64,000 nucleotides of DNA from Bacteroidaceae bacterium. GTDB lineage: Bacteria; Bacteroidota; Bacteroidia; Bacteroidales; Bacteroidaceae. The notes below the pieces were generated by a model. The model did no database searches, was not told the origin of the DNA, and saw only the letters and a list, made by a program, of their open reading frames with translations. Both the position numbers and the translations under genes were made by a program. Below are positions 1 to 61,518 of the stretch, piece by piece. How positions within the stretch are numbered: the first letter of the stretch is position 1; the number at the start of each line of letters is the position of its first letter. The stretch covers positions 310,001 to 374,000 of the forward strand of contig JAFUFK010000013.1 of assembly GCA_017469925.1 (NCBI GenBank), written 5' to 3'.

Positions 1-794
1 ACTACCGGGTCCGCCCGGGCCGATATGCCGTCCGCCGGGGCGAGAGTATCCTGGCCCTGTTCCGCTGTCTCAGGAACGGCCAGCAGGAGCCCCTGAGGCT
101 GACCATCCCGTCCGTGCGGACGCTCGGCCAACTCTATGCCTACCTGGGCGAACGCCTCATGGTGGACTCGACGGCGCTGGCCCGGGCGCTGGCCAATGGT
201 TGGGCCGACGACGGCCATCGCTACACCGAGCAGACGCTGCCGGCCTTGTTTGTCCCGAATACTTACGAGGTGTATTGGAACGTCTCGACCGAGGAGTTGC
301 TGCGCCGCATGCAGCGCGAGCAGGACGCCTTCTGGCAGGGCGAGCGCGACCGCAAGGCGCGGGCCATGGGGATGACCCGCGAGGAGGTGGCCACGCTGGC
401 CAGCATCGTCGATGAGGAGACGGCCAACGACGCCGAGAAGCCCATGGTGGCCGGCATGTACGTCAAGCGCCTCGCCATCGGTATGCCCTTGCAGGCCGAC
501 CCGACGGTGAAGTTTGCCCTGGGCGACTTCTCCCTGCGTCGCATCTGGGGTAAGCACCTGACCATCGACAGCCCTTACAATACGTACAAGAACACGGGAC
601 TGCCGCCGGGCCCCATCCGCATTGCCTCCGTCGCGGGCATCGATGCGGTGCTCGACCACGTCCGCCACGACTACATCTACATGTGTGCCAAGGAGGACTT
701 CTCGGGCACGCACAACTTCGCCCGCACGTATCAAGAGCATTTGCAAAATGCAAAACGCTACGCCCAGGCACTTAACCAAAGAGGAATAAGATGA
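1..794 (+). CDS. mltG: Endolytic murein transglycosylase MltG, 3' part
   Basis: The reading frame is open from the first bases of the window and runs to 794, so the gene starts upstream. An internal GTG at 114 is not the real start because MltG-like sequence (YRVRPGRYAVRRGESI...) lies before it. MltG is an inner-membrane lytic transglycosylase that cuts nascent glycan strands and terminates their growth. Family signatures are visible: VATLASIVDEET with the catalytic-region glutamate, the ADPTVKFALG stretch, and SPYNTYKNTGLPPGPI near the end. The N-terminal membrane anchor is outside the window. The C-terminus (HLQNAKRYAQAL) overlaps a TGCAAAA-type heptad repeat at 741-758. Its stop overlaps the next start by four bases (ATGA), indicating translational coupling. 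Identification is confident; only the 5' end is missing. Confidence 0.93.
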   Translation, partial: YRVRPGRYAVRRGESILALFRCLRNGQQEPLRLTIPSVRTLGQLYAYLGERLMVDSTALARALANGWADDGHRYTEQTLPALFVPNTYEVYWNVSTEELLRRMQREQDAFWQGERDRKARAMGMTREEVATLASIVDEETANDAEKPMVAGMYVKRLAIGMPLQADPTVKFALGDFSLRRIWGKHLTIDSPYNTYKNTGLPPGPIRIASVAGIDAVLDHVRHDYIYMCAKEDFSGTHNFARTYQEHLQNAKRYAQALNQRGIR

Positions 795-1969
795 AACGAC
801 TGCTACTTTCCCTACTGCTACTGCCCGCCCTCGGGGCGTCGGCACAACCGATTACACTTGACCTCCGGGACAGCCTCGAGCGGCCCTGCTACTACGCCTC
901 CGTCCGGGTGCCTGACGGCAACTATCGGGTCACGGTGACCCTGGGCGCGAGGAAGTTCGCGGCATCGACCACCGTCAGGGCCGAGAGCCGCCGCCTGTTC
1001 ATCGAAAACGAACCGACCCGAAAGGGGGAGACCCGGACCATATCCTTCCTCGTCAACAAGCGCACACCGCGCATCGACGAAGGCGAACAGGTGCGCATCA
1101 AGGAACGCGAGCGCACGAAACTCAACTGGGACGACCTGCTCACCCTCGAGGTGACGGGCGACCGGCAGGCCGTGCAGCGCATCACCATCGAACGCGATAC
1201 CGTGGCTCCGACCGTATTCCTCTGCGGAAACTCGACGGTGGTTGACCAGGACGACGAGCCATGGGCCTCCTGGGGACAGATGATTACGCGCTGGTTTACG
1301 GACTCGGTCTGCTTCTGCAACCTGGCGGAGAGTGGCGAGACGGCCAGTACGTTCATCGGCGTCGGGCGCCTGAAGAAAGGTCTCTCGATGATGAAACCCG
1401 GCGACTACATCGTCATGGAGTTCGGCCACAACGACCAGAAGCAGCGTGGCCCCGGCATGGGAGCCTACTACAACTTCGCCACGGCCCTGAAGACCTTCGT
1501 CGATGAAGCCCGCCAGCGTGGTGCGCAGCCCATCTTCATTACGCCCACCCAGCGCCGCTCGTTCGACAAGGAGGGCCGCATCCGCGAGACTCATGCCGAC
1601 TACCCCGAGGCCATGCAGTGGGTGGCCGAGCGCGAGGGGTGCCCGCTCATCGACCTCCACCAGATGACCCGCGTGCTCTTTGAGTCGATGGGCGAGGAGG
1701 GCTCGAAGCGGGCCTTCGTCCACTATCCCGCAGGCAGTTATCCCGGACAGACAACGGCCTTTGCCGACAACACCCACTTCAATCCCTACGGAGCCTACGA
1801 GATAGCCAAGTGCGTCGTCGAGGGCCTGATAGCGGGGGGGATAGACTTCGTGCGCTATCTGCGTCCCGAGTATCCGCGCGGCTACAATCCCGCACGGCCC
1901 GACCCGGTGGAGACCTTCCATTGGGTCGATAGCAAGCACGTTGACCTGGTAAAGCCTGATGGAAATTAG
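791..1969 (+). CDS. Secreted rhamnogalacturonan acetylesterase-like SGNH hydrolase (CE12 type)
   Basis: A 392-residue protein with an N-terminal signal peptide (MKRLLLSLLLLPALGASAQ). It has a beta-rich N-terminal domain of about 130 residues and then an SGNH/GDSL hydrolase fold. Visible blocks: CGNSTV with the presumed nucleophile Ser148, GHND at 212-215, and DNTHFN with Asp326 and His329 of the catalytic triad. This arrangement matches CE12 rhamnogalacturonan acetylesterases, which remove acetyl groups from the pectin backbone. The GDS aspartate is Asn here. It overlaps mltG upstream and the glycosyltransferase gene downstream, so it is part of a four-gene coupled run, unusual company for a pectin esterase. 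The exact substrate is inferred. Confidence 0.82.
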   Translation: MKRLLLSLLLLPALGASAQPITLDLRDSLERPCYYASVRVPDGNYRVTVTLGARKFAASTTVRAESRRLFIENEPTRKGETRTISFLVNKRTPRIDEGEQVRIKERERTKLNWDDLLTLEVTGDRQAVQRITIERDTVAPTVFLCGNSTVVDQDDEPWASWGQMITRWFTDSVCFCNLAESGETASTFIGVGRLKKGLSMMKPGDYIVMEFGHNDQKQRGPGMGAYYNFATALKTFVDEARQRGAQPIFITPTQRRSFDKEGRIRETHADYPEAMQWVAEREGCPLIDLHQMTRVLFESMGEEGSKRAFVHYPAGSYPGQTTAFADNTHFNPYGAYEIAKCVVEGLIAGGIDFVRYLRPEYPRGYNPARPDPVETFHWVDSKHVDLVKPDGN

Positions 1970-2930
1970 GAAGATACTCCGTCGCTTCCGCGAGTTCGGC
2001 GGCTGGCGCCTGGTTCGCACCTATTGGCGCATGGGCGTCCTGGGGCCTGCCCTGGGCGAGTTGTTGCGCATGCCCTTCCGGCGCGGAGGCCGTATCCGCT
2101 CCTATTCCCAGTTGCTCAACCACGTAACCCCGCACCTGAAGTCCCAGTTCTATCCGCTCTTGTGCGACCTGAAGGCGAAGTACGACGCCCAACCTCTCGA
2201 CCACCGACGTAGCCGTCGGGTGTGGTTCTGCTGGCTACAAGGGCTGGACGAGGCGCCCGAGCTCGTCCGCGCGTGCCTCCACTCCCAGCGGGCCATCCTG
2301 AAGGACCGCGAGATTGTCGTCGTGACCGAGGCGAACTTCCCTGACTATGTCACCATGCCCGACTCCTTCCTCCGCCTCTACCGCGAAGGCAAGGTGCCCC
2401 GCGCCCTCTTCTCCGACCTCCTCCGCCTGGAGTTGCTCATAAAGTACGGCGGGACGTGGATGGATGCGACCGTCCTCTGCACGAGCGACAACTACCCGCC
2501 GCAGGTGTTCGACTGCGACCTCTTCATGTTCCAGTACTACTCGCGCCAGCGCCGCCAGGCGACGGGCGTCTCGAATTGGTTCATCACTGCGTGCACCAAC
2601 AACCCCCTCCTCCTCGTCCTGCGCGACATGCTCTATGCCTACTGGCAAGCCTACGACTGCACGGTCGATTACTACATCTTCCACCAGTTCTTTGCCTGGA
2701 TAGCCCGCGAGTACCCGGCCGAGATAGCCCGCATGCCCCGTGGCTCGAGCCTGGTGGCCATCTCCCTCGGGCAGAAGATGGACAGCGGCGAGCCCTACGA
2801 CGAGGCCTGGATGCAGCAACTCCTCTCGCACTGCTGCTTCCACAAACTCTCCTGCCGGACCGGCGGCCGACAGCTTACCGCCCCCCGAAGTTACTATTCC
2901 CACATCATTAAGTTAGCCCGCGAATTATGA
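1959..2930 (+). CDS. Capsular polysaccharide synthesis glycosyltransferase (Caps_synth / Gly_transf_sug type)
   Basis: A 323-residue soluble protein without a signal peptide. The central segment 'LLRLELLIKYGGTWMDATVLCT' region has the GG-W-D pattern of the sugar-transferring DXD-type glycosyltransferases related to Och1 and capsule synthesis proteins (Pfam Caps_synth/Gly_transf_sug). The W/F-rich segment 'VWFCWLQGLDEAPELVRACLHSQR' matches the beginning of this domain. The likely role is transfer of a hexose from a nucleotide sugar in surface polysaccharide synthesis at the cytoplasmic face. It starts inside the esterase gene (11-base overlap) and ends overlapping the GH2-like gene by four bases. 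Donor and acceptor are not readable from sequence. Confidence 0.8.
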   Translation: MEIRKILRRFREFGGWRLVRTYWRMGVLGPALGELLRMPFRRGGRIRSYSQLLNHVTPHLKSQFYPLLCDLKAKYDAQPLDHRRSRRVWFCWLQGLDEAPELVRACLHSQRAILKDREIVVVTEANFPDYVTMPDSFLRLYREGKVPRALFSDLLRLELLIKYGGTWMDATVLCTSDNYPPQVFDCDLFMFQYYSRQRRQATGVSNWFITACTNNPLLLVLRDMLYAYWQAYDCTVDYYIFHQFFAWIAREYPAEIARMPRGSSLVAISLGQKMDSGEPYDEAWMQQLLSHCCFHKLSCRTGGRQLTAPRSYYSHIIKLAREL

Positions 2931-5824
2931 AGAAAGCACTGCTACTGCTCATGGCCTTCGGCCTCCAGTTCTCCACGCCTGCCCCGCTCCTTGCCCAGCA
3001 CGACATCGACTTCGACCGCGACTGGAGCTACACCCACGGAGGCGAGACGAAGTACGTCACCCTGCCTCGTGCCTGGAACGAGGACTATGCCTACCGCGTA
3101 ATCATCGACGACCTGCCCACCGACACCGTCCGCTACACCAAACTCTTCCAACTGCCCAAGACGGCGCGCGGACAGAAGGTCTTCATCGAGTTCGAGGGGG
3201 CGCGCCAGATGGCCAAGGTGTGGCTCAACGGCCACCTCTTGGGCATACACGAAGATGGCATCACCGCCTTTGGCTTCGACCTGACGCCTTGGCTCGACTA
3301 CGAAGGCACGAACCGCATAGAGGTGCTCACCGACAACAGCTGGAACTACCACGAGGAGGCCACGGGCTCCACCATCCAGTGGAACAATCGTAACTTCAAC
3401 GCCAACTATGGCGGGCTGCCCAAGCACGTGCGCCTGCACATTCTCAATCCTGTCCACCAGACCCTTCCCCTCTTTTCGTCGTTCGGCACGACGGGCGTCT
3501 ATGTCTATGCCTCGGACATCGATGTCGCAAAACGCAAAATGCAAATCAACGTCGAGTCGCAGGTCCGCAACGAGAGCGACAAGGCCCAGCCCGTCCGCCT
3601 CGAGGTGGAAGTCGCCGACATGCGCGGCAACCGCATCGCCCGCTTCCGCTCCGACGCCGCGACCATAGCCGCAGGCCAGACCCTCACGCTCCGGGCCCGT
3701 CGCCACCTCTCGGGCATGCACTTCTGGTCGTGGGGCTATGGCTACCTCTACACCGTTACGACGCGCCTTGTCAGCGGCAAGCACATGCTGGACGAGGTAT
3801 CTACGCGCACGGGCTTCCGCAAGACCGAGTTTGCCAACGGGCAATTCCGCCTCAACGACCGCACGCTCATGGTCCACGGCTACGCCCAGCGCACGAGCAA
3901 CGAGTGGCCTGCCGTAGGCATGAGTGTACCCCCCTGGCTCAGCGACTACTCCAACGCCGAGATGGTGCGCAGTGGCGGCAACCTGGTGCGCTGGATGCAC
4001 ATCGCCCCCTGGCGACAGGACGTCGAGTCGTGCGACCGCGTCGGCCTGATTCAGGCCATGCCCGCCGGCGATGCCGAGAAGGACGTCACCGGCCGCCGCT
4101 GGGACATGCGCAAGGAGGTCATGCGCGACGCCATCGTCTATTACAAGAACAACCCCAGCATCATCTTCTACGAGTCGGGCAATGCCGGCATCAGCGAGGA
4201 GCACATGCAGGAGATGCTCGCCATCCGCGACCAGTACGACCCCTACGGCGGCCGAGCCATCGGTTGCCGAGAGATGCTGAGCAGCCACACGGCCGAGTAC
4301 GGGGGCGAGATGCTCTACATCAACAAGAGTGCCTACAAGCCCGTCTGGGCCATGGAATACTGCCGCGACGAGGCCCTGCGCCGCTACTGGGACGACTGGA
4401 GCTATCCCTACCACCGCCAGGGCGACGGGCCCCTGTATCGCAATGCCGACGCATCGGCCTACAACCAGAACTGCGACCAGTTTGCCATCGAGCACATACG
4501 CCGCTGGTTCGACTACTGGCAGTACCGTCCCGGCACGGGCAAGCGAGTGAGCAGCGGAGGCGTGAAGATAGTCTTCTCCGACACCAACACCCACCGCCGA
4601 GGCGAGTCGAACTACCGCACGAGTGGCGTGGTCGATGCCATGCGCCTGCCCAAAGACTCGTACTATGCCCACCAAGTCATGTGGGACGGATGGGTGACGC
4701 CCGAGGTGTCGCACACCCACATCATCGGCCACTGGAACTACGCGCCCGGCACGGTGAAGCCCGTCTATGTCGTCTCCGATGCGCCCATCGTCAAGCTCTA
4801 CCTCAACGGCCGCCTGCTGGGCAACCGCCCCAGCGTGGAATACCACTTCCTCCACACCTTCGACAGCATCCCCTTCGAACCGGGTGAGTTGCGCGCCGTC
4901 TCGTACGACGGGCAGGGAGGCTACCTGTCGGAGTGCAAACTGCAAACTGCAAACGAGCCCCATGCGATACGCCTCACCTCGCTGACCTCGCCCACGGGCT
5001 TCCTGGCCGACGGAGCCGACATGGCCCTGGTCACCTTCGAGGTAGTGGATGCCCAGGGGCGTCGCTGTCCCACGGACAATCGCCTGATAAACTTCACCCT
5101 CACCGGTCCTGCCGAGTGGCGCGGGGGCATTGCGAAGGGCGACGACAACCTCATCCTCTCCCGCCAACTGCCCGTAGAGTGTGGGGTAGGGCGCGTGCTG
5201 CTGCGCTCTACTACGGATGCGGGCCTTGTTACCCTGCATGCCGAAGCCGAGGGGGTGGAGGCTGCCCGCCTCACGCTGAAGACGCTTGCCGAGCCCCTGC
5301 CTGCCTCCAAGGAACTGAAGTTCCTGCGCGACGAGACACCCGCCACGCCTTCCTACACCGAGACGAAACGGACGCTCGACATCCGCTCCGCCGTCGCCGG
5401 CAGCAATCAGGCTGATGCCCAACTGAGCATCGACGACGACGAATACACCCAGTGGCAGAGCGACGGCCAGTTGCGTAACGCCTGGATTCGCTACGAACTC
5501 TCCGAGCCCGCGCAGGTCGATGAGATTAGCCTGAAACTACGCGACTGGCGCTCGCGCAGTTACAACCTGGAGGTGGTGGCCGACGACGGCACCGTCCTCT
5601 GGAGCGGACAGACGCCCCTGTCGCTGGGCTACGTCCTGCTGCCCCTGAAGCCTTGCGTGACACGCCACCTTACCCTGCGCCTGCGCGGGGCGGCCAGCAC
5701 GTCGGAGGACAATCCCTTCGGCCAGATTACCGAACTCGACCCCTCGAATAACGAGCAGCAGGAGGGTGGCCGCCGCCACGACCTGCGCATCGTCGAGTGC
5801 GACCTCCTGCGCCACGTCCGCTGA
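2927..5824 (+). CDS. Secreted glycoside hydrolase family 2-like protein with discoidin-like C-terminus
   Basis: A 965-residue exported protein with signal peptide MKKALLLLMAFGLQFSTPAPLLAQ. The order is a GH2 sugar-binding jelly roll (about 25-180, with LPRAWNED and VWLNGHLLG), an immunoglobulin-like domain, a TIM barrel (about 290-560), a DUF4982-like segment with VVSDAPIVKLYLNG, a Big-like domain, and an F5/8-type (discoidin) domain from about 820. GH2 enzymes are retaining exo-glycosidases such as beta-galactosidases and beta-glucuronidases. A likely nucleophile is Glu477 in WAMEYCRDE. The usual Asn-Glu acid/base motif is replaced by ESGNAG (Glu416, Asn419, Ala420). Short in-frame repeats encode DVAKRKMQI and ECKLQTAN at 3527-3546 and 4934-4954. 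It is the last gene of the run. Substrate is unknown. Confidence 0.85.
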   Translation: MKKALLLLMAFGLQFSTPAPLLAQHDIDFDRDWSYTHGGETKYVTLPRAWNEDYAYRVIIDDLPTDTVRYTKLFQLPKTARGQKVFIEFEGARQMAKVWLNGHLLGIHEDGITAFGFDLTPWLDYEGTNRIEVLTDNSWNYHEEATGSTIQWNNRNFNANYGGLPKHVRLHILNPVHQTLPLFSSFGTTGVYVYASDIDVAKRKMQINVESQVRNESDKAQPVRLEVEVADMRGNRIARFRSDAATIAAGQTLTLRARRHLSGMHFWSWGYGYLYTVTTRLVSGKHMLDEVSTRTGFRKTEFANGQFRLNDRTLMVHGYAQRTSNEWPAVGMSVPPWLSDYSNAEMVRSGGNLVRWMHIAPWRQDVESCDRVGLIQAMPAGDAEKDVTGRRWDMRKEVMRDAIVYYKNNPSIIFYESGNAGISEEHMQEMLAIRDQYDPYGGRAIGCREMLSSHTAEYGGEMLYINKSAYKPVWAMEYCRDEALRRYWDDWSYPYHRQGDGPLYRNADASAYNQNCDQFAIEHIRRWFDYWQYRPGTGKRVSSGGVKIVFSDTNTHRRGESNYRTSGVVDAMRLPKDSYYAHQVMWDGWVTPEVSHTHIIGHWNYAPGTVKPVYVVSDAPIVKLYLNGRLLGNRPSVEYHFLHTFDSIPFEPGELRAVSYDGQGGYLSECKLQTANEPHAIRLTSLTSPTGFLADGADMALVTFEVVDAQGRRCPTDNRLINFTLTGPAEWRGGIAKGDDNLILSRQLPVECGVGRVLLRSTTDAGLVTLHAEAEGVEAARLTLKTLAEPLPASKELKFLRDETPATPSYTETKRTLDIRSAVAGSNQADAQLSIDDDEYTQWQSDGQLRNAWIRYELSEPAQVDEISLKLRDWRSRSYNLEVVADDGTVLWSGQTPLSLGYVLLPLKPCVTRHLTLRLRGAASTSEDNPFGQITELDPSNNEQQEGGRRHDLRIVECDLLRHVR
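3527..3546 (+). repeat. Short 7-base-type tandem repeat inside the GH2-like gene
   Basis: Three copies of a GCAAAAC/GCAAAAT-type unit lie in the open reading frame and encode AKRKMQI between two beta-sheet domains. It is one of the dispersed TGCAAAN repeats of this window. Confidence 0.7.
4934..4954 (+). repeat. TGCAAAC heptad repeat, three exact copies, inside the GH2-like gene
   Basis: Three exact TGCAAAC units in a row (21 bases) keep the frame and encode CKLQTAN. They lie in a linker between the DUF4982-like and Big-like domains. Confidence 0.85.
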
Positions 5825-7663: not shown

Positions 7664-8354
7664 CCTGTTCATCGACTTCGACGACACCCTCTACGACACC
7701 CACGGCAATGCCGACATTGCCCTCCGGGAGTTGTACGAGCACTTCCGCCTCGACCGCTATTTCTCGCGTCCCGAGCAGTTCACCGAGCCCTATTGGCTGG
7801 CCAACGTCCTGCTCTGGAGCCAGTATGCCCGTGAGGAGATTACGCGCGACTATCTCATCGTCGAGCGCTTCCGCCGCCCGCTCTCCGTGGGCATGGGCGA
7901 GGGGGCTACGCGGGAGTTCTGCCTCGAGGTGAGCGACTGGTTCCTCGACTGCTGTGCCGACAAGCCCGGCACCATCGAGGGCGCCCACGACCTGATGGAC
8001 TATCTGCGCGCCCGTGGCTACCGGCTCCACATGACGAGCAACGGATTCCACGAGGTGCAGTACCGCAAGTTGCGGGCCAGCCGCCTGTTGGACTACTTCG
8101 ACACCATCATCCTGAGCGAGGACGCGGGCGTCAACAAACCCGCGCGGGCCTTCTTCGACTATGCCCTGCGTACCAGCAAGGCACGGCCCGAGACCACGCT
8201 GATGATTGGCGACAACTTCGTGACCGACATCCAGGGGGCGAAGGAGGCGGGCCTCAGTGTCCTCTTCTTCAACGCGCATCCCGACGAGTTCCAGGCGCCC
8301 GAGCCTGTCGATTACGAGGTCCACCGACTCTGTGACATCAAACAAATCCTATGA
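7650..8354 (+). CDS. HAD-family phosphatase, YjjG-like nucleotidase
   Basis: A 234-residue HAD hydrolase. The start at ATG 7650 gives [17 protein letters not shown], which puts the catalytic motif I (DFDDTLYD) at the N-terminus as usual; an in-frame upstream start would add an unrelated segment read through queF. Motif II is LHMTSNG, motif III is the lysine in [10 protein letters not shown], and motif IV is [16 protein letters not shown]. The family includes YjjG, a house-cleaning pyrimidine nucleotidase. It overlaps queF by 14 bases and the GT26 gene by four. The precise substrate cannot be read. Confidence 0.87.
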
Positions 8355-9088
8355 GCCTGAGACTGAAGACACTACGACTCGTACGGAGCAAGGCCGAACT
8401 CCAGAGCCTGCCCGAGGGGAAGGTGATGATAAACACCATCAACGCCCACTCGTACAACGTGGCGCAGCGCGACGAGGCCTTCGCCCGTGCCCTCCAGGGC
8501 GGGGTGCTCATCCCCGACGGGGCCAGCATCGTCTGGGCCTGCCGTTGGCTCCGTGCCGAGAGCCGGCCCGAGGAGCGCATTGCGGGCTGGGACCTGTTTG
8601 AGTACGAAATGCAGAAGTGCAAAGTGCAAAGTGCAAAGTGCAACCAGGCGCGGAAGGTCATGTTCATGGGCAGCAGCGAGCGCGTCCTGTCGCTCATCCG
8701 CGAGCGCATGGGCCGCGAGTACCCCGAACTGACGTGCGTCACCTACTCGCCCCCCTACAAGGCCCAGTTCTCCGAGGCCGACAACCGGGCCATCGTCGAG
8801 GCCATCAACACGGCCCGCCCCGACCTGCTCTGGATAGGCATGACGGCCCCGAAGCAGGAGAAGTGGGTCCACCAGCACTGGGACAAACTCGCGATAGACT
8901 GCCACGTGGGCGCCATCGGGGCCGTGTTCGACTTCTACGCAGGCACCCTCCGCCGGGCTCCCGAGTGGTGGCAACGCCACTCGCTGGAGTGGCTCTACCG
9001 CCTCCTGCGCGAGCCCCGTCGCATGTGGCGGCGCTACCTGGTGGGCAATGCGAAATTCATCGGTTACATGCTGAAGGAGAGACTATGA
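8351..9088 (+). CDS. WecG/TagA/CpsF family glycosyltransferase (GT26)
   Basis: A 245-residue glycosyltransferase of the WecG/TagA family. These proteins add N-acetyl-mannosamine or a related sugar to an undecaprenyl-linked intermediate at the inner face of the membrane. Seen: the substrate-site pattern [17 protein letters not shown] and [14 protein letters not shown], then the second half [11 protein letters not shown] and the Asn/Asp/Lys-rich [19 protein letters not shown], typical of the family's end. Between them an in-frame repeat at 8609-8645 inserts [13 protein letters not shown] into a loop before the beta strand MFMGSS. It overlaps its neighbours by four bases on both sides. Confidence 0.9.
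8609..8645 (+). repeat. TGCAAAG heptad repeat inside the GT26 gene
   Basis: Three exact TGCAAAG units plus a degenerate fourth and a degenerate preceding unit lie within the coding sequence. They encode KCKVQSAKC in frame. The same unit occurs between genes at 10808-10828 and in degenerate form elsewhere. Confidence 0.92.
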
Positions 9089-9723
9089 AACACCCCGCCG
9101 TGCTCCTGCTGACGCTCTGTCTCGTCGGGTTGGCCAAGGGTCAGCCGGCGGACACATGCTTCACCGCGAGCCTGGTGCCCGACTCCGTCTTCCGCCTGAT
9201 GCAGGGCAGGAGTTACCCCCAGGGCTGTCCCATCGCACGCAGCGAACTGCGCCTCCTCCGCCTCTCGTACCGCGACGAGCAGGGCAGGACCCAACAGGGG
9301 GAGATGGTCTGCAACGTGCAAATTGCAAAGGACCTTATCGACATCTTCCGCCAACTCTGGCTGGCCGACTACCGGCTGGGGCGCATGCGGCTCATCGACC
9401 ACTACGAGGCCGACGACGAGCGCTCGATGGCGGACAACAATACGTCGTGCTTCTGCTACCGCACCATCGCGGGCTCGAGGACCATCTCGAAGCACGGCCG
9501 CGGCCTGGCCGTCGATGTCAACCCCCTCTACAACCCCTACGTCAAGGGGACGCACGTCGCTCCGCGGGCGGGCCGGAAGTGGGCCTTCCGACGTGGCGAG
9601 CGCAAGGACATTCCCCAGAAGATTGACCACCAGGACCTCCTCTACCGGCTCTTCCGCCAACACGGATTCCGATGGGGAGGCGACTGGCGATATAGTAAAG
9701 ACTATCAACACTTTGAGCGATGA
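9085..9723 (+). CDS. Secreted M15-like D-alanyl-D-alanine carboxypeptidase-family protein
   Basis: A 212-residue exported protein; ATG 9085 overlaps the previous stop and starts a signal peptide ([20 protein letters not shown]). The C-terminal half is a metallopeptidase M15-type domain. SKHGRGLAVDVNP carries the His and Asp zinc ligands and DYQHFE the last His. FRQLWLADYRLGRMRLIDHYEADDERSMADNNTS fits the family's N-terminal half. M15 enzymes cut D-amino-acid peptide bonds in peptidoglycan stem peptides. A heptad-like repeat at 9310-9330 encodes CNVQIAKD. The 3' end overlaps the next gene by four bases. Substrate is inferred from family. Confidence 0.87.
   Translation: MKHPAVLLLTLCLVGLAKGQPADTCFTASLVPDSVFRLMQGRSYPQGCPIARSELRLLRLSYRDEQGRTQQGEMVCNVQIAKDLIDIFRQLWLADYRLGRMRLIDHYEADDERSMADNNTSCFCYRTIAGSRTISKHGRGLAVDVNPLYNPYVKGTHVAPRAGRKWAFRRGERKDIPQKIDHQDLLYRLFRQHGFRWGGDWRYSKDYQHFER
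9310..9330 (+). repeat. Degenerate TGCAAAN heptad repeat inside the M15-like gene
   Basis: Units TGCAACG, TGCAAAT and TGCAAAG follow one another in frame and encode CNVQIAK. Confidence 0.7.
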
Positions 9724-10807: not shown

Positions 10808-10828
10808 TGCAAAGTGCAAAGTGCAAAG
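10808..10828 (+). repeat. TGCAAAG heptad repeat, three exact copies, intergenic
   Basis: Lies in the 75-base gap between the NTP_transf_5 gene and glnN. Identical unit to the one inside the GT26 gene 2.2 kb upstream. Confidence 0.95.
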
Positions 10829-10871
10829 TCACACACCCCGAATAACGTAATAACGCAAACTGAACTGAGAT

Positions 10872-13068: not shown

Positions 13069-13101
13069 GGGTTGGGCACCCCTTCCCTTATAACCCAACC
13101 C
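13069..13101. terminator. Hairpin downstream of glnN
   Basis: GGGTTGGG at 13069-13076 pairs with CCCAACCC at 13094-13101. There is no T run on the plus strand, so its role as a glnN terminator is uncertain. It also lies just downstream of the leftward promoter at 13113-13144 and could fold in that transcript. Confidence 0.5.
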
Positions 13102-13112
13102 CAAGAGTAGCG

Positions 13113-13144: not shown

Positions 13145-13146
13145 TC

Positions 13147-13195: not shown

Positions 13196-13229
13196 ACATA
13201 GGGAGAGGGTCCCAGATAGGGAGAGGGTC

Positions 13230-13775: not shown

Positions 13776-13790
13776 TGTTGTAAGGGTTTA

Positions 13791-13820
13791 AAGGGTTAAA
13801 GGTTAAGGGTTAAAGGGTTG
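13791..13820. repeat. TTAAGGG-type tandem repeat upstream of the HU-like gene
   Basis: Units of 7-8 bases (AAGGGTTT, AAAGGGTT, AAAGGTT, AAGGGTT, AAAGGGTT) lie in the 5' leader of the HU-like gene, between its promoter and start codon. Confidence 0.75.
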
Positions 13821-14684: not shown

Positions 14685-14705
14685 CTTTGCACTTTGCAAT
14701 TTGCA
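14685..14705 (-). repeat. TGCAAAG/TGCAAAT heptad repeat on the minus strand
   Basis: CTTTGCA, CTTTGCA and ATTTGCA in tandem as read on the plus strand, lying in the AT-rich intergenic region. Confidence 0.8.
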
Positions 14706-14790
14706 AAACGCGAACCTCAGCACTCCATATTTTTATATATATAAAATATTAATATATTATATATATAAGCCAATACAATAGGGTACACCA

Positions 14791-17187: not shown

Positions 17188-17226
17188 TGCACGGCCCCGG
17201 GAGGAGTCGTGCACCTTCTTCTTTTT
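17188..17226 (+). terminator. Terminator after the DUF3987 gene
   Basis: TGCACG (17188-17193) pairs with CGTGCA (17208-17213), followed by a pyrimidine-rich stretch ending in TTTTT. The T tract merges into the heptad repeat that follows. Confidence 0.65.
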
Positions 17227-17271
17227 GCACTTTGCACTTTGCACTTTGAACTATGCACTATGCACTTCGAA
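17223..17271 (-). repeat. Long heptad repeat, seven units, between convergent genes
   Basis: Read on the plus strand: TTTTGCA, CTTTGCA, CTTTGCA, CTTTGAA, CTATGCA, CTATGCA, CTTCGAA. It is the longest member of the TGCAAAG family in the window and shows a second sub-variant (TGCATAG) arising inside the array. Confidence 0.92.
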
Positions 17272-17274
17272 CTG

Positions 17275-18005: not shown

Positions 18006-18935
18006 TCAACCGAGGCGGCGGAAAGCCGTCGGGTAGGGGGTCTCGAACTCCATGCGCAGCCCCGTCGTCGGGTGGTAGAGATAGAGCCGGTAGGCATGGA
18101 GGCAGAGGCGGTGGATGGGGTCGTCGCCGCGCAGGCCGTACTTCTTGTCGCCACAGACGGGATGGCCCAGGTCGGCCATCTGTACGCGTATCTGATTCTT
18201 GCGGCCCGTCTCGAGGCGCAGTTCCACCAGCGTGCGACCTTCCAGACGCTCCACGACACGGAAGTGTGTGGTGGCCAACTTGCCATCATTATCCGTTGGG
18301 CTACTGCGAGTTACGCCGATTTGGTCATCCTTTAGATAACTCTCCAGCGTGCCGCCTTCCTGCTCGATGACGCCCGACACGAGAGCCACGTAGCGGCGGT
18401 CGAAGACGCGACCTTTCCAGTCGCGCTCCAGCACGCGGGCGGCCTCAATCGTCTTGGCATAGACCATCAGGCCCGACGTGTCGCGGTCGAGCCGGTGGAC
18501 GACGTGGGCATGGCACTGGAAGTGGCGACGCTCGAAGTACTCGTCCAAGACCGTCTTCACCGTAAACTGGCGCGCCGACGTGCCCATCGACAGGATGCCC
18601 GGCTGCTTGTCGATGACGACGATGTCCTTGTCCTCATAGATTATCTTCAGCCACTGGCTCTCGAGTTCCGTCTTGCGCCGGTGGCGGCTGACGAGCACCG
18701 TCTGGCCCGCACGCAGCGGGTGGTCGTGGCGCGTAACCAAGCGACGATCGACCATGACGCCGTGGCCCTGAAGTATGTCCTTTGCCTTGTTGCGGCTGTA
18801 GCCCTCACGCATCAGGAAGTCGAGCAACTCGCAGTCCTCGCGCACCGGGTACTCGCGGTACTTCGTACGCGCATAGGCTTCGCCGCCCGTCGTTGCATTT
18901 TGCATTTTGCGTTCTTGCATTTTGCGTTCTCTCAT
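18006..18935 (-). CDS. RluA-family pseudouridine synthase with S4 domain
   Basis: A 309-residue enzyme that isomerises uridine to pseudouridine in rRNA. Residues ~35-95 form an S4 RNA-binding domain (ELLDFLMREGYSRNKAKDILQGHGVMVD). The catalytic core has HRLDRDTSGLMVYAK with the active-site Asp, then LETGRKNQIRVQMADLGHPVCGDKKYG. The first ~22 residues (MRERKMQERKMQNATTGGEA) are encoded by a TGCAAAN heptad-type repeat, so the true start may be a downstream codon near ARTKYREYPV or the repeat may have been captured as an extension. Which uridine it modifies cannot be read from sequence. Confidence 0.9.
   Translation of the reverse strand: MRERKMQERKMQNATTGGEAYARTKYREYPVREDCELLDFLMREGYSRNKAKDILQGHGVMVDRRLVTRHDHPLRAGQTVLVSRHRRKTELESQWLKIIYEDKDIVVIDKQPGILSMGTSARQFTVKTVLDEYFERRHFQCHAHVVHRLDRDTSGLMVYAKTIEAARVLERDWKGRVFDRRYVALVSGVIEQEGGTLESYLKDDQIGVTRSSPTDNDGKLATTHFRVVERLEGRTLVELRLETGRKNQIRVQMADLGHPVCGDKKYGLRGDDPIHRLCLHAYRLYLYHPTTGLRMEFETPYPTAFRRLG
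18892..18930 (-). repeat. Heptad-type repeat at the 5' end of the RluA-family gene
   Basis: Units GTTGCAT, TTTGCAT, TTTGCGT, TCTTGCAT, TTTGCGT as read on the plus strand. They encode the N-terminal ERKMQERKMQNAT stretch. Confidence 0.85.
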
Positions 18936-18972
18936 CTTCTCATCTACAATTCTTACAGAATCCGTGTTATGT

Positions 18973-19597: not shown

Positions 19598-20860
19598 TCA
19601 CGAAAGTTTGTGCACGACCAGGCCACTGCGCAACTTCGGCTCGAACCATGTGGCCTTGGGAGGCATAATCTGGCCGTGGTCGGCAATGTCCATGATTTCC
19701 TGCATCGACACGGGATACAGGGCCAAGGCCATCTGCATCTCGCCCGAATCGACTCGGCGCTCCAACTCCTCGTAACCGCGCAGACCACCTACGAAGTCGA
19801 TACGCTTGTCGCTACGTAAGTCGGTGATTCCGAGCAGTTTATCGAGTATCAGACGACTGCTGATGCTGACGTCGAGCCCCGCAATGGGGTCCGTGTCGTC
19901 GGCCAGTCCGTCGTGCAACTGAAGGCGATACCAATAGCCGTCGAGATAGAGGGCAAACTGGTGCTTCTGCTGCGGATGGCGGCGCTCCTTGCCGCAACAC
20001 TCGATGTCGAAGTCCTCGGCCAATGCTGCCAGGAACTCCTGAGGCGTACGCCCGTTCAGGTCGCGCACTACCCTATTGTAGTCGAGAATCGTCAGCTGGG
20101 AGGCCGGGAAGCAGACGGCCATGAAGTAGTTGTACTCCTCGTCGCCCTTGTGATGGGGGTTCTGGCTGGCCTTCTCGGCACCCACCAGCGCGGCAGCGGC
20201 CGACCGATGGTGGCCGTCGGCTATATACAGATAAGGTATCTGGGCAAAGGTCTCCGTAATGGTCGCGATGTCCTGCTTGTCGCTGACAGGCCACAACTGG
20301 TGGCGGAACCCGTCGATGGGCGCCACGAAGTCGTACTCGGGCTCCGTCCGCGTGTAGCGGGCCACGAGGGCGTCGATGACGGCGTTGTCCTTGTAGGCAA
20401 AGAAGACGGGCTCCATGTTGGCCTGCGTGGCGCGGACGTGCTTCATGCGGTCCTCCTCCTTGTCGCGGCGCGTGAGTTCGTGCTTCTTGATGACACCGTT
20501 CTTCGTGTAGTCCTCCACCAGGGCACCTACGACCAGTCCGTATTGCGTTTTGCATTTTGCACCGCACTGCATCGACTGGGCATAGATGTAATACATCTCC
20601 TCCTGGTCCTGCACGAGCCAACCCTCCTGCTGGAACTTCTGGAAGTTCCGCGTCGCCTGCTCATAGACGCGCGGGGCGTACTCGCTGGTGCCCACGGGGA
20701 AGTCTATCTCGGGCTTGATGATGTGGTACAGGCTCTTCTCATTCGTGCCTGCCTCTGCCCTCGCCTCTTCGCTGTCGAGCACGTCGTAGGGACGGCTCTC
20801 GACCTGCTCCACCAGTTCCTTCGGTGGGCGCAAGCCTCTGAAAGGTTTTATGGTTGCCAT
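19598..20860 (-). CDS. DUF1015 family protein
   Basis: A 420-residue cytosolic protein of DUF1015 (a HTH-containing, possible kinase/regulatory family). The start MATIKPFRGLRPPKELVEQVESRPYDVLDSEEARAEA and the IADGHHRSAAA segment are family hallmarks. It follows serA by 15 bases, and the serC-serA-DUF1015 order is common in Bacteroidota, which suggests a link with serine synthesis. At about residue 100 an in-frame TGCAAAN repeat (20543-20565) encodes QCGAKCKTQ. Biochemical function is unproven. Confidence 0.92.
   Translation of the reverse strand: MATIKPFRGLRPPKELVEQVESRPYDVLDSEEARAEAGTNEKSLYHIIKPEIDFPVGTSEYAPRVYEQATRNFQKFQQEGWLVQDQEEMYYIYAQSMQCGAKCKTQYGLVVGALVEDYTKNGVIKKHELTRRDKEEDRMKHVRATQANMEPVFFAYKDNAVIDALVARYTRTEPEYDFVAPIDGFRHQLWPVSDKQDIATITETFAQIPYLYIADGHHRSAAAALVGAEKASQNPHHKGDEEYNYFMAVCFPASQLTILDYNRVVRDLNGRTPQEFLAALAEDFDIECCGKERRHPQQKHQFALYLDGYWYRLQLHDGLADDTDPIAGLDVSISSRLILDKLLGITDLRSDKRIDFVGGLRGYEELERRVDSGEMQMALALYPVSMQEIMDIADHGQIMPPKATWFEPKLRSGLVVHKLS
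20543..20565 (-). repeat. TGCAAAA/TGCAAAACG repeat inside the DUF1015 gene
   Basis: TTGCGTT, TTGCATT and TTGCACC units on the plus strand encode GAKCKTQ in frame after the MYYIYAQSMQC segment. Confidence 0.75.
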
Positions 20861-26160: not shown

Positions 26161-28638
26161 TTATTTAGCTCTCAAGGTGTAAGTATGGCCCGCCTGGGTC
26201 GGGAGGTCGTATTCATAGACCGGACGGATAAGCCCGACGAGGGGCATCTCCTCAGGCTGTATGGAGGAGCGTAGAGGCTGTCTGATAGAGGCCTGTTGCA
26301 GGAGCGGGTTCGGACTCATGCCCTCGGCCCGTTTCAGGCCTTTACAGGAAAGCGGAACATAGGAACGCACGCGCAGGATTCCACCTATGGAGGAACGAAT
26401 CGTGGCCTTCTCTACCGAACCCTTCCTCCACTCGATATCGACTTCGAAGCCACCACGTGCCCGGAGTCCGCTTACCCTACCCTCTTCCCATGCATCGGGT
26501 AAGGCGGGAAGCAGGTGGACGGCCCCATCGTGACTCTGGAGGAGTATCTCGCTGATACCTGCGGTGGCCCCGAAGTTGCCGTCAATCTGGAAGGGCGGAT
26601 GGGCATCGAAGAGGTTCGGATAAGTCCTGCCGTCGGGATATTGCCGGGCCTTGCTGTCCTCAGGCAATAGGCGCAACATGTTGCGGATAATCCGGAAGGC
26701 GTGGTTGCCATCCTGCATACGTGCCCAGAAGTTTATCTTCCATCCCAGACTCCACCCTGTGGCCTGGTCGCCACGTTGGTGGAGGGTCGTGGCTGCGGCC
26801 GCGAAGAGTTCGGGGTGGCGGTACGGCGATATCTGGTTTGAGGGATATAGTCCATAGAGGTGCGAGATGTGGCGATGCTCGTTCCTCGGGTCGTCGGCAT
26901 CCTCCTGCCACTCTTGCAGTTGGCCGTACTGCCCTATCCGCATGGGCGGCAACTCGCGGATGGTCCTTTCCAGCGTGTCGCAATAGTCCGCCTGGTTGCC
27001 CAGGATGCGTGCTGCCTGCAGGGCATTTGAAAGGGCGTCGAAGGCAATCTGGTTGTCCATCGTCGTACCGGCACTCAGGGGCGAACGCTTACCTCTCGGG
27101 GCTTGCTCGGGACTGACGGAGGGGACGACGACGAGATAGCCCGTCCGCGGGTCACGCTGCATGTAGTCGAGATAGAAGTCGGCCGCCCCCCGGATGACTG
27201 GGAACCACTGGCGCAGAAAGTCCCGGTCTCCCGTAAACAGATAGTGCTGCCACAGGTGGGTCGAGAGCCACGCCCCCCCGTTGGGGAACATGCCCCAGAA
27301 AGCGCCGTCCACGGGACCGGCAATGCGCCACAGGTCGGTATTATGATGGGCCATCCATCCTCGGCAACCATACATCTCGCGGGCAGTCCGGGCCCCCGTC
27401 ACGCTCAGGTCGCGAATCAGGTGGAACAGGGGCTCCTGCGTCTCGAACAGGTTCGTGGGCAGTGCAGGCCAGTAGTTCATCTCGGTATTGATGTTGATGG
27501 TGTACTTCGAGTCCCAAGGGGCATTCATCTTGTCGTTCCACACGCCTTGCAGATTGGCGGGCTGGCCACCGGGCTGAGAGGATGAAATGAGCAGATAGCG
27601 GCCATAGTTGAAGAGCAATGTCACCAGACCCAGGTCGTTCGACTCGTAAAACTTATCCAGCCGCTGGTCGGTGGGGAGTGAGGAAGTGAGGGAATGGCGG
27701 AGTGACGAAGTGAGGCTGAGCCTGACACGCCCGTACTGAGCCTTGTAGGCGCGTTCGTGGCGAGCGAGCAGTTGCTTGTATGAGAGGGCGCCCAGCGCGT
27801 GCAGACTCTCTTCGTTGCATTTTGCAGCATCGGCCGAGACATCGTGGTAGTTCACGAAGTTCGTGGCTGCACAGATGAGCAGGGTTACCTCCGTAGCCCC
27901 CCGGATGTCGAGCGCCTCAGTGCCTTCTGCTACTCGCCCGTCGGTGCGATGCACTTGGGCCACGCATTGGGCATGCAATCTTGAGGCTATGCCCTCCTGC
28001 TCTACCCCGTCTATGTCGGCAATAAGGCGTGCCTGCTGAGTACTTAATCGAGCCTTTAGCTGCGAGTCGTAACCCAGATGTAGGTCCATCCGTCCGCCCT
28101 TTGCCGTCATGCGGACTACGATGGTCTTGTCGCTCAACGAAGCAAACACCACGCGCTCATAACTGACGCCGTCGGCCTTGAATCGTGTGGTAGCGACGGC
28201 TCTTTCCAAGTCGAGGTCGCGACGGTAGTCCGTAACCCGTGACTCGTCGAGATTCCGTAGTTCCATCTTCAGGTTGCCCAAAGGCAGGAAACGCATGCCA
28301 TGAGGTCCCTTTACAAAGTGCTGGTTGACCAGCGCCTCGGCCTCGGCTTCCCGGTCTTCGAAAATCAGTTGCCGGACCTCAGCCAGATGTCCGAGCGACT
28401 CCCGGCTGTTATTGTCGTGCGGTCCCCCACTCCAGAAGGTTTCCTCGTTCAGTTGCAGGGTCTCCGTCCGAGTGCCACCGAACACCATAACCCCCAATTT
28501 ACTATTGCCCACAGGCAGTGCCTCGAGCCAATGCCGCGCAGGATGGTTGTACCAAAGTCGGTCTCCGTCGCTGCCTGCCACCCAAGTCGGAATGAGCAGC
28601 ATCAGGAGTCCCAAGAGCATATTGTTTCGCATCGTCAT
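26161..28638 (-). CDS. Glycoside hydrolase family 95 (alpha-L-fucosidase type)
   Basis: A roughly 825-residue exported enzyme. ATG 28638 or 28632 gives the signal peptide [21 protein letters not shown]; a more upstream in-frame codon would cross the promoter. The N-terminal beta-sandwich starts [30 protein letters not shown]. The (alpha/alpha)6 barrel has [39 protein letters not shown], and [17 protein letters not shown], hallmarks of GH95. These enzymes are inverting and release alpha-1,2-fucose or related galactose. Two repeat patches lie inside (27675-27720, 27814-27828). Placed 12 bases downstream of, and in the same direction as, GH98: fucosylated host glycans would suit both, but that is inference. 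Confidence 0.92.
27675..27720 (-). repeat. Seven/eight-base tandem repeat in the GH95 gene
   Basis: GAGTGAGG, AAGTGAGG, GAATGGCG, GAGTGACG, AAGTGAGG-type units. On the coding strand they give the [15 protein letters not shown] segment, a period-7 to -8 patch within an otherwise typical loop. Confidence 0.75.
27814..27828 (-). repeat. Short TGCAAAA repeat in the GH95 gene
   Basis: Two units (GTTGCAT, TTTGCAG as read on plus) encode AAKCNEE. A weak member of the family. Confidence 0.5.
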
Positions 28639-33541: not shown

Positions 33542-33542
33542 G

Positions 33543-33584
33543 AATTATCAATTATCAATTATCAATTGCCAATAGTCAATTGCC
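33543..33584. repeat. AATTATC heptad repeat, six units, between TPR and def genes
   Basis: AATTATC three times, AATTGCC, AATAGTC, AATTGCC: six consecutive 7-base units covering the whole gap between the def stop and the TPR start. Confidence 0.95.
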
Positions 33585-33590
33585 ACTGGT

Positions 33591-59625: not shown

Positions 59626-61494
59626 ATGGATAAAAACACAGTTACAGGATTCGTGCTCATCGCACTGGTACTAATCGCCTTCTCGTGGTGGAGCCGCCCT
59701 AGCGAGGCCCAGTTGAGGGAAATGGCACGTCAAGACTCTATTGCACAAGTAGAACAAGCCAAGGCACAGGTTGAGGCAGAGAAGGCTCTCCTTACTGAGC
59801 AAGCAAAGGAGGCAGATAACATTGATTCCACATCGGCCTTCTTCACCAGCAAGAAAGGGGAAGGGCAACTTGTGAGGTTAGATAATACTCTCGTCGGCGT
59901 GACGTTGAGCACCCGTGGAGGCATGGTTGAGCAAGCAGTACTGCATGATTATAAGAACCAGCAGGGTAAGGAGGTTACCCTACTTTCAGCCGACGATAGT
60001 CACATGGCTTTTGCCCTGGCTGGTAAGAACGAAAACATCACGAGCGACGACCTCTACTTCATCGTAACCGAACAGACCGACACTACTGCCACCCTACAAG
60101 CCCAGACGGTCTCAGGAGGAACCCTGAGCCTGCGTTATTACCTGCATCCTGAAAGCTACATGCTCGACCTCGTTATCGAGAGCAAGGGACTTCAGCACCT
60201 CTTTGCCCCATCGATGAACAGCATCGACCTCACTTGGGAGAACCGTGCGCAACAGCAGGAGAAAGGTGCTTCGTTTGAAGGCAGATATGCGGCACTTACC
60301 TATAAGATTAAAGGACAGGGAACCAAGAAGCTTAACGAGATGAAAGCTACGGAGAAGGACATCGACAAGATACTCGACTGGGTTGACTTTAAGGACCAGT
60401 TCTTCTCGGCTATACTGATTGCCCATCAGGACTTCAAGAACGTCCACCTCTCAAGCAATCCCATGGAGAAAGGTAGTGGTTACATAAAGGCTTATTCGGC
60501 CCAAATGCAAACCCTGTTCGACCCCACAGGCAAGCAACCCACTCAGCTCCAACTCTACCTTGGTCCTAACGACTTCAGTGCGCTGAAGCATGCCAACCGG
60601 CTCTCGCTTACCGGAAAGTCGCTGAAACTTCAAAACCTCGTCTATTTCGGTTGGCCTATAGTTAAGTGGATTAACCGCTGGTTCATCCTCCCCCTGTTTG
60701 ACGGACTGACCAAGTTGGGCCTAAACATGGGTATCGTGCTCCTGTTGCTTACTGTCATTGTCAAGGCTCTGGTCTATCCCGCTACAAAGAAAAGTTATCT
60801 GGCAGGTGCTCGGATGCGTGTCCTGAAGCCTGAAATTGACCAGCTCAACGCTAAATATCCCAAACAGGAAGATGCCATGAAGAAACAACAGGAAATGATG
60901 CAGCTCTACTCCCAATATGGCGTATCGCCCATGGGGGGGTGTCTGCCGATGCTCATCCAGATGCCCATCTGGATTGCACTCTTCAACTTCATTCCTAACG
61001 CCATCAAACTTCGTGGCGAGAGTTTCCTTTGGGCCAACGACCTCAGTGCCTATGACGACCTTATCCATTGGTCGAAGAACCTGTGGCTCATCGGTGACCA
61101 CATCAGTATCTTCTGCCTTTTATTCTCGCTCACCAACATTGTCAACATGTTCATCTCCATGCGTCAGCAGCAGAACACGGCCATGATGTCGCCCGAACAA
61201 CAGCAACAAATGAAGATGATGCAGTGGATGATGGGCATCATGCCAGTATTCTTCTTCTTCATGTTCAACGACTATTCGTCGGGCCTCTCCTACTATTACT
61301 TCCTTTCGGGCCTTACGACAATACTCATCATGTGGGCTCTGCGCCGTTTTACTGATGACAAGAAGCTCCGTGCCCAACTCGATGATTACAAGGCTCGTCA
61401 TGCCAATGACCCCAAGAAGATGGGAGGCCTTGCAGCCCGGCTCGAAGCAATGCAGAAGATGGCCGAGGAACAGCAGAAAATGCGTAAGCGCTAA
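59626..61494 (+). CDS. yidC: Membrane protein insertase YidC
   Basis: A 622-residue insertase. ATG 59626 (MDKNTVTGFVLIALVLIAFSWWS) gives the first helix. A large periplasmic beta domain spans ~70-345 and the conserved insertase core starts at WFILPLFDGLTKLGLNMGIVLLLLTVIVKALVYPATKKSYLAGARMRVLKPEI. It continues with SPMGGCLPMLIQMPIWIALFNF and ends with a basic tail. It inserts proteins in the inner membrane alone or with Sec. Followed at 29 bases by DUF1846. Confidence 0.97.
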   Translation: MDKNTVTGFVLIALVLIAFSWWSRPSEAQLREMARQDSIAQVEQAKAQVEAEKALLTEQAKEADNIDSTSAFFTSKKGEGQLVRLDNTLVGVTLSTRGGMVEQAVLHDYKNQQGKEVTLLSADDSHMAFALAGKNENITSDDLYFIVTEQTDTTATLQAQTVSGGTLSLRYYLHPESYMLDLVIESKGLQHLFAPSMNSIDLTWENRAQQQEKGASFEGRYAALTYKIKGQGTKKLNEMKATEKDIDKILDWVDFKDQFFSAILIAHQDFKNVHLSSNPMEKGSGYIKAYSAQMQTLFDPTGKQPTQLQLYLGPNDFSALKHANRLSLTGKSLKLQNLVYFGWPIVKWINRWFILPLFDGLTKLGLNMGIVLLLLTVIVKALVYPATKKSYLAGARMRVLKPEIDQLNAKYPKQEDAMKKQQEMMQLYSQYGVSPMGGCLPMLIQMPIWIALFNFIPNAIKLRGESFLWANDLSAYDDLIHWSKNLWLIGDHISIFCLLFSLTNIVNMFISMRQQQNTAMMSPEQQQQMKMMQWMMGIMPVFFFFMFNDYSSGLSYYYFLSGLTTILIMWALRRFTDDKKLRAQLDDYKARHANDPKKMGGLAARLEAMQKMAEEQQKMRKR

Positions 61495-61496
61495 AT

Positions 61497-61518
61497 AGTA
61501 AATGATTAAATGGTAAAT
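61497..61518 (+). repeat. AAATGGT-type short tandem repeat
   Basis: Units AAATAGT, AAATGATT, AAATGGT, AAATGTG fill the gap between yidC and the DUF1846 gene. Period 7-8. Confidence 0.6.

Follow-up and report, generated by a model that had tools for sequence, protein, structure and literature searches.

The window, a stretch of 64,000 nucleotides from a Bacteroidaceae bacterium (G000:C20:310001-374000; assembly G000 of 2.87 Mb in 28 contigs, 86 percent complete), contains many short tandem repeats with a unit of seven bases, here called heptads, both inside and between genes. Period 7 exceeds what protein and codon constraints produce, single heptads recur at multiple loci, arrays present in one species are absent from others, and several patches within genes are length-neutral with respect to orthologs. 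The patches are read, with about even confidence, as heptanucleotide simple sequence repeats that would be made by seven-base slippage together with short template switching during replication or repair, and kept where they are tolerated.

Arrays were detected by a lag-7 test requiring at least 12 matches out of 14, and Tandem Repeats Finder (TRF) was run alongside on the window. The two yielded 12 period-7 arrays (at 3525, 4931, 8613, 10806, 13143, 13791, 14684, 17221, 18892, 20539, 33488 and 33538). The lag test found two arrays of period 6, one of period 8, one of period 9, and none of periods 5, 10 and 11. A sequence-only reading of the window had listed 18 repeat positions, of which 12 pass the lag-7 test. 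Four others (741, 9310, 14791 and 27814) are weaker and fail it, yet satisfy a looser criterion used for TGCAAAN, a two-unit tandem scan. At 61497, TRF lists an AAATGGT array with a score of 33, which is weak and contains indels, and at 44459 two copies of TTTAATG, seen by eye only, were missed by TRF (score 30) and by the lag test and are left uncounted. The coexistence of unrelated heptads, also put forward in that reading, stands: TGCAAAN, AATTRTC and TTAAAGG-like units are present in the window, and further ones elsewhere in the genome.

The survey of G000 covered 814 kb, consisting of 434 kb of contig C20 and 380 kb in 19 stretches of other contigs; six of these 19 were chosen because TGCAAAG repeats were known there. 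It returned 78 period-7 arrays. On C20, 41 were found against 0.3 in third-order Markov sequence, and the other contigs, with their six picked stretches, gave 37 against 1.0. No period-7 array was found in 50 kb of E. coli K-12.

The coding set comprised 588 genes (687,081 bases) from a simple custom gene caller. It contained 35 arrays of period 7. Three synonymous-codon shuffles gave 0, 1 and 1, and as many codon-order shuffles 3, 1 and 0. The corresponding numbers against the synonymous shuffles were 24 versus 1, 1 and 2 for period 14, 3 versus 0, 0 and 1 for period 8, 19 versus 11, 15 and 15 for period 6, and 22 versus 23, 18 and 19 for period 9, with no rise for periods 5, 10, 11 and 13. 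Among the coding periods tested (5-11, 13 and 14), only 7 and its double are clearly above the shuffles. As the period-7 excess persists over shuffles that preserve codons, repetitive protein does not explain it; this was the control proposed in the sequence-only reading, and the excess is clear.

When the lag test was applied to the whole sequence, periods 5, 10, 11 and 13 were close to the control, and periods 6, 9, 12, 18 and 24 were raised, as multiples of the codon would be. Periods 8, 14, 15, 16, 21, 22 and 23 were also raised, judging by eye partly from arrays that mix seven and eight. Between genes, period-7 matches with run lengths of 7-9, 10-13 and at least 14 numbered 41, 10 and 8, against 6.7, 0.3 and 0, respectively. 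Period 7 thus stands apart in coding DNA, and no other short period is as strong between genes, which supports the earlier proposal of a common process over chance.

With the simple gene caller, 36 of the 78 arrays fall within genes; the first 30 codons hold 7 of these, the last 60 codons 9, and the part in between 20. The other 42 are between genes, although intergenic DNA makes up only about 16 percent of the sequence. Arrays in genes encode hydrophilic linkers (CKVQSAK, SKFKVQS ahead of a YDLSGRR tail, LSPLTSN) or hydrophobic stretches. Heptad GC content did not follow local GC content (Spearman coefficient of 0.05 over the 78 arrays).

Sharing of heptads among loci and replacement between species

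Period-7 arrays are widely spread in relatives. In 80 named loci (1.45 Mb), which are the best 80 of 593 glutamine synthetase III relatives at no more than 80 percent identity, 122 arrays were found in 44 loci; nearly all of these loci are from Bacteroidales, and many are from animal-gut assemblies named Prevotellaceae, Bacteroidaceae or Prevotella. On this basis G000 is regarded as an uncultured bacterium of the Bacteroidales. Within the genus, for which the comparison set consisted of 138 other genomes with one genome per species, seven relatives gave 54 arrays in 387 kb. Heptad-poor members were also found, with two arrays in 100 kb of G012 and none in 100 kb of G011. In two other genomes of the order, none (G014) and one (G018) were found in 62 kb each.

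Two arrays of the same locus (at most 22 kb) have a heptad in common in 103 of 231 pairs; for arrays of different loci the figure is 857 of 7150. Two genomes have a single heptad scattered throughout. G147, to which the Marseilla massiliensis locus belongs, contains 413 matches to the AATTAAG family (unit TTAAGAA), a count that includes overlapping registers, so that arrays are fewer; G148 has none and G149 five. The count of 277 for the reversed word in G147 is no control, the reversed word being a rotation of the same heptad. In G129, 182 matches to the ATTGAAC family (TTGAACA), overlapping registers included, lie on many contigs, against eight for the reversed control. The favourite heptad often differs between species.

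Like arrays are found within 250 bp of each other in both orientations, 25 of 200 with direct and 33 of 200 with inverted neighbours, compared with 7 and 9, respectively, among 504 control draws, which is consistent with brief template switching. An excess of inverted over direct neighbours (33 versus 25) is not clear. In G000, most arrays are solitary, and 6 of 78 have an inverted partner (at most 2 mismatches in 16, within 250 bp). In G147, inverted arms are present in all 18 stretches picked for pairs. The arms are mostly of 28 bp (four heptads) and 28 to 101 bp apart, once 599 bp, and enclose a AATATGCCTTG-like inner motif. The mirrored sequence at L276 comprises a heptad arm and, in addition, 9 bp of non-heptad sequence, as expected from fold-back copying.

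Some further arrangements were noted. The AATTAAG inverted arms at L276 25-160, L280 378-483 and L286 309-963, all in G147, have the shape of a miniature inverted-repeat transposable element (MITE), and some are nested or mirrored with their neighbours; in the one long example, only short open reading frames of at most 67 aa lie between the arms. An inverted pair 940 bp apart at L019 (1767/2706) was considered as a new mobile element and rejected, as its arms are linkers before the similar C-terminal tails of two convergent genes. At L302 1004-1120 (G140), a 43-bp unit containing AAATGGT/AAATTGT heptads forms a higher-order repeat of three tandem copies.

Comparison with orthologs indicates how the coding TGCAAA patches of the window arose. 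Five of the eight show no change in length, namely those of the YceG gene (11 orthologs), the GH2 gene, which has two (one ortholog for both), the M15 peptidase gene (nine ortholog rows, two of them from one place) and the GH95 gene (11 homologs, one of which is gapped, seven residues beyond the patch). These heptads therefore appear to have been made by base changes. At GH2 4934, the perfect triple TGCAAAC replaces CACAAACTCGAAACCGTGGGC of the ortholog. Of the other three, the DUF1015 array is a species-specific insertion of 12 bp, absent from all 29 related loci (the best of 137 matching relatives), the WecG array lies in a loop that differs in length from that of G000 in seven of the eight ortholog rows shown, two rows being from one place, and the RluD-like gene has an apparent N-terminal extension. 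As a mechanism, the earlier suggestion that the reading frame is kept because three heptads make steps of 21 bases is for the most part incorrect, given the five length-neutral patches and the 12 bp of the clearest insertion.

The best case of an in-gene array is that of the TPR protein, which has MKRLIYIILLIVNCQLSIVNSALAQ as its N-terminus. Among orthologs of 12 other genomes, the NCQ-SIVN peptide is common to G035 only. Other repeats were seen by eye, without scoring, in other species: a GATTGAA/TTCAATT pair around the start codon in G045, ATGAGAG/CTCTCAT-like pairs in G065, G134 and G053, and a CCTTTAAGGGGAGG-like motif at the 5' end in G129, G100 and G140. In the remaining orthologs no repeat was noticed by eye. 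As the repeats differ across species, the same permissive place appears to have been filled by different ones. The presence of arrays is not fixed across related species, so that this refuting condition of the sequence-only reading does not hold, the DUF1015 array being found in none of 29 related loci and the TPR heptad peptide in 1 of 12 other genomes. Through such arrays, Bacteroidales proteins may acquire new signal peptides, linkers and loops. The arrays also call for caution in annotation, since peptides such as KCKVQSAK and NCQLSIVN are repeats at the DNA level and not domains. At L229, L232 and L238 (G129, G140 and G100, respectively), TPR signal-peptide regions are built of a CCTTTAAGGGGAGGTTAGGAGGGG-like motif. 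This would seem to be a further dispersed repeat, occupying the place that heptads take elsewhere.

The TGCAAAN cluster

The two-unit scan of the 434 kb of C20 gave 14 TGCAAAN matches, in 13 patches, all within window positions 742-27813, and none on the remaining 407 kb. Scrambled units gave 1.5 matches per contig on average and seven at most, so that a permissive pattern is unlikely to have produced the patches by coincidence. The hexamer is mostly fixed across the patches and the seventh base is free. Outside the patches, TGCAAA occurs 3 times in about 28 kb, where its frequency on the rest of the contig would give 17.7, an expectation that the high GC content lowers. The density of the cluster, 0.37 arrays per kb, is exceeded by 5 of 100 other loci and is therefore not unusual. 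TGCAAAG repeats are present at eight further loci on other contigs, where the looser scan gave 17 TGCAAAN matches in 10 of the 19 20-kb stretches, six of the 19 having been picked for such repeats. No TGCAAA array was found by the lag test in stretches of seven relatives with many of the same genes.

No other 28 kb of the contig are as GC-rich as those of the cluster (0.614), and the GC content changes in a step near 309.5 kb. The YceG reading frame is continuous, by eye, across the left edge of the window, and a chimeric contig was rejected on this ground. Gene order inside the cluster is mostly kept in G053, G100 and G129, the GH2 gene not being seen at the corresponding place in G100 or G129. 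For window 17190-22900, the closest relatives are G033, G045, G123, G100 and G129, with 70 to 87 percent DNA identity. The distance from the glutamine synthetase gene to the DUF4923 gene is about 0.8 kb in G100 and G129 versus 4.2 kb in G000. The extra segment (window 13070-17300) carries HU-HIG, BT4734-like and DUF3987 genes and the AT-rich centre, and may be a module inserted into the middle of the cluster.

TGCAAA is on the + strand to the left of 14.7 kb, on the - strand to the right, and on both from 14685 to 14797. The gene strand flips at the same place, and in all eight in-gene patches TGCAAA is on the coding strand; the polarity may thus simply follow the genes and is not independent evidence. 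A second AT-rich structure with TGCAAA arms, at C19:151838-152003 (L027 11838-12003), has no cluster within the surrounding 20 kb. This structure and window 14660-14830 are both partly palindromic, AT-rich over about 40-80 bp and flanked by TGCAAA heptads in both orientations. A tie between such structures and the BT4734-like/DUF3987 module was rejected, as the second structure, at C19:151.8 kb, belongs to a capsule-type locus and is not near the one further DUF3987 match in the genome.

It is conceivable, though rather unlikely, that a local process or local selection writes TGCAAAN at seven-base spacing into these 27 kb or so, through base changes in conserved genes and through insertions at tolerant sites, with both sides oriented towards the AT-rich centre at about 14.7 kb. 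The stretch would then be a heptad-marked chromosomal domain read by some protein, or a zone into which templated conversion extends outwards from the centre, and other species would use other heptads.

Mechanism and rival explanations

In the reading given at the outset, a strand would slip by seven bases, which would create and lengthen arrays whatever their sequence. A strand would also briefly copy a near or distant heptad array and then return. Such short template switching would spread one heptad over the genome in both orientations, and where the sequence already matched in part, it would be overwritten at constant length. Selection would retain arrays where harm is small, as between genes and in signal peptides, linkers and loops. 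The period and the growth of arrays are explained by slippage in steps of seven. It is insufficient alone, since one heptad is found at many loci and several patches are length-neutral, for which template switching would fit; the claim that the patches reflect a generating process rather than slippage is to that extent partly right. Three results are beyond plain slippage, namely the 27-kb confinement of TGCAAAN, the length-neutral coding patches and the repeats that differ between species in one signal peptide. Shared heptads, gene-specific differences between species and length-neutral overwriting are the sites where slippage, templated copying and selection predict differently.

Several points weigh against the combination of slippage and template switching. 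Intergenic two-copy duplications of period 8 (29 versus 4.0) and period 9 (28 versus 5.7) are almost at the level of period 7, and the preference for seven is seen mainly in longer arrays, long intergenic runs being mostly of periods 7 and 14. The concentration of one heptad in 27 kb is not predicted by a genome-wide process, and no local sharing of heptads was found among the arrays of C20 outside the window. The ancestral state of both GH2 patches depends on a single ortholog, and length-neutral patches could alternatively arise by selection on point mutations. We infer from sequence compared at the species level that slippage and template switching take place, in which direction copying runs, and that most arrays are neutral. 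The enzyme searches reported below rest on incomplete assemblies, that of G000 included.

Pure slippage in situ, every array having grown from its own chance seed through a polymerase that favours a seven-base step, is the explanation already in print. It accounts for the shared period, the excess of two-copy duplications and the growth of arrays in place, but leaves unexplained the sharing of a heptad by unrelated loci of one genome, the confinement of TGCAAAN tandems to 27 of 434 kb and the length-neutral patches, and is considered improbable. The confinement would be understood if tandem TGCAAA were the selected site of a putative DNA-binding protein, made by point mutation of near matches and by tolerated insertion, and pointing to a centre at about 14.7 kb. 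The fixed hexamer with its free seventh base, the length-neutral origin of patches, and the strand arrangement around an AT-rich stretch between inverted arms agree with such sites; the polarity that follows the gene strand, the TGCAAAN tandems of other contigs, the similar but isolated C19 structure and the lack of TGCAAA arrays by the lag test in the seven relatives do not, and the chance of this explanation is likewise put as low. It is more doubtful still that recombination (or binning) brought in a GC-rich 28-kb stretch from a species whose favourite heptad is TGCAAAN. The GC content and its step would fit, as would dense neighbourhoods elsewhere, the five loci above 0.37 arrays per kb including L145 and L171, each dominated by one heptad. 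Yet genes inside and outside the stretch share the closest relatives G045, G033 and G123, the order of most inside genes is kept in relatives, the YceG frame crosses the edge, and no candidate donor was found; recombination would moreover only relocate the question of how length-neutral heptads originate.

A MITE- or REPIN-like hairpin element that ends in the heptad arms and is moved by a transposase is suggested by the G147 arms with their similar inner motif, in stretches that were picked for pairs, and by the enrichment of inverted neighbours. This is very unlikely given that most G000 arrays are solitary, that no target duplication was seen by eye, no systematic search having been made, and that no Y1 transposase was found in the incomplete assemblies of G129, G140 and G147. 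A Y1 (RAYT-type) transposase gave one match below the cut-off in G000, and matches above it in G045 and G148. Templated addition by a reverse transcriptase, either telomerase-like or like that of retrons or diversity-generating retroelements, would suit a species-specific unit with a constant step, as copied from a short RNA template, and the enzyme is present in the heptad-bearing G129, G147 and G148. It was not found in G000, G140, G053, G033, G045, G065 and G123 (seven of the ten genus members tested, as incomplete assemblies), which makes a telomerase-like writer unlikely, yet it is present in the heptad-poor G011 and G012. As several unrelated heptads also coexist in one genome, this explanation is hardly credible. 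Neither enzyme is supported as the writer of heptads by its presence and absence across genomes; a reverse transcriptase is not needed, rather than absent throughout.

The STRR repeats of heterocystous cyanobacteria, reportedly described by Mazel in 1990, are likewise dispersed and lineage-specific tandem heptanucleotides. A literature search that lacked most subscription journals found no account of heptads for Prevotella or for other Bacteroidales of the gut. Nor did this search find their wide spread in gut Bacteroidales, their placement in genes with species-specific replacement, their length-neutral origin or a domain with a single heptad.

Units of 7 nt are stated to be favoured among long simple sequence repeats in many prokaryotes, slippage being proposed (Mrazek 2007, via PMC4679880 and PMC4692102) and linked in print to the length of DNA in contact with the polymerase (PMC4679880, PMC4692102). 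G000 has the favoured heptanucleotide unit in common with these repeats, and differs in that 36 of 78 arrays are in genes, several are length-neutral and one heptad is confined to 27 kb of one contig. The TAACTGA direct repeats of Beggiatoaceae, Cyanobacteria and five Bacteroidetes, for which regulation or rearrangement is suggested (MacGregor 2015, PMC4679880), resemble those of G000 as heptads in two to many copies at many loci, variable between relatives, with other heptamers reported in Bacteroidetes too. The G000 unit is another one, several families coexist and nearly half of the arrays are in genes; exact TAACTGA pairs are absent from the 814 kb, and one match with two mismatches lies in the window, inside the AATTATC array. 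The GGGAATC repeats of Xanthomonas, which include inverted ones, and the GGGGAYT repeats of Nostoc (Rehm 2015, PMC4692102) share with them a heptad with variable positions, more than 180 places per genome, some inverted repeats and a length that varies between related organisms. Those are G-rich and were studied as quadruplex formers, whereas the G000 type is mostly AT-rich. Degenerate heptads that pair into a hairpin, with a genotype-dependent copy number, are found in the P6b loop of the Nostoc tRNA-Leu intron (PMC3488679); they are like the inverted pairs of G147, but belong to a single intron locus and are not dispersed genome-wide.

Coordinates and other repeats

Table 1. Heptad patches and associated features of the window
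Feature	Position	Strand	Context
TGCAAAA patch, 2.4 units	741..758	+	YceG gene, C-terminal codons LQNAKR; same length as 11 orthologs
CGCAAAA/TGCAAAT, 3 units	3526..3546	+	GH2 glycosidase gene 2927-5824; same length as one ortholog (G053)
TGCAAAC x3, perfect	4934..4954	+	GH2 gene 2927-5824, peptide CKLQTAN; same length as one ortholog
TGCAAAG units	8609..8645	+	WecG/TagA/CpsF glycosyltransferase gene 8351-9088; loop of variable length
TGCAACG TGCAAAT TGCAAAG	9310..9330	+	M15 peptidase gene 9085-9723, peptide CNVQIAK; length unchanged versus orthologs
TGCAAAG x3	10808..10829	+	Intergenic, between NTP_transf_5 and glutamine synthetase III genes
TGCAAAC TGCAAAG TGCAAAA	13147..13167	+	Downstream of glutamine synthetase III
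TTAAAGG/AAGGGTTA array, periods 7 and 8 mixed	13782..13819	+	Intergenic
TGCAAAT TGCAAAG TGCAAAG	14685..14708	-	Left arm beside AT-rich stretch
AT-rich stretch between two heptad patches	14727..14767	.	Near middle of TGCAAAN cluster
TGCAAAC TGCAAAA	14791..14812	+	Right arm, inverted versus 14685-14708
TGCATAG x2, TTCAAAG, TGCAAAG/A x3	17221..17268	-	Between convergent genes
CGCAAAA/TGCAAAA units	18890..18945	-	Start of RluD-like pseudouridine synthase gene; apparent N-terminal extension MQERKMQN
TGCAAAA x2 and CGCAATA	20539..20562	-	DUF1015 gene 19598-20860; 12-bp insertion
TGCAAAA TGCAACG	27810..27830	-	GH95 gene 26161-28686; patch length unchanged versus 11 homologs
AATTGTC/AATTATC array coding NCQLSIVN	33481..33512	-	Signal-peptide region of TPR protein 31556-33541
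AATTATC array	33538..33585	.	Just upstream of TPR start codon; inverted versus 33481-33512 (by eye)
Weak AAATGGT array	61492..61519	+	Between two genes; TRF score 33

Repeats of other periods were noticed as well. Arrays with a period of 22 bp occur at L017 182-285 and 9567-9793, L018 6662, L022 4369, L023 5271, L026 17374, L095 1774-2040 and L098 4938, and also in G012 (L067 6989 and 10380) and G011 (L071 9117), that is, in all three genus members examined. They consist of short motifs, mostly palindromic and about 14-16 bp long (GTGCCACCCATGGCAC and AACCAGTCACTGGTT are examples), with 6-8 variable bases in between. The motif differs by locus, and that of G011 is not palindromic. Within the NTP_transf_5 gene, window 10424-10480 contains a period-9/18 repeat, GGACCTTAAGGACTCTAA, encoding the peptide KDLKDSKDLKDS. 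Short matches to it are present in many genomes of the genus, and it may represent a further family of dispersed repeats.

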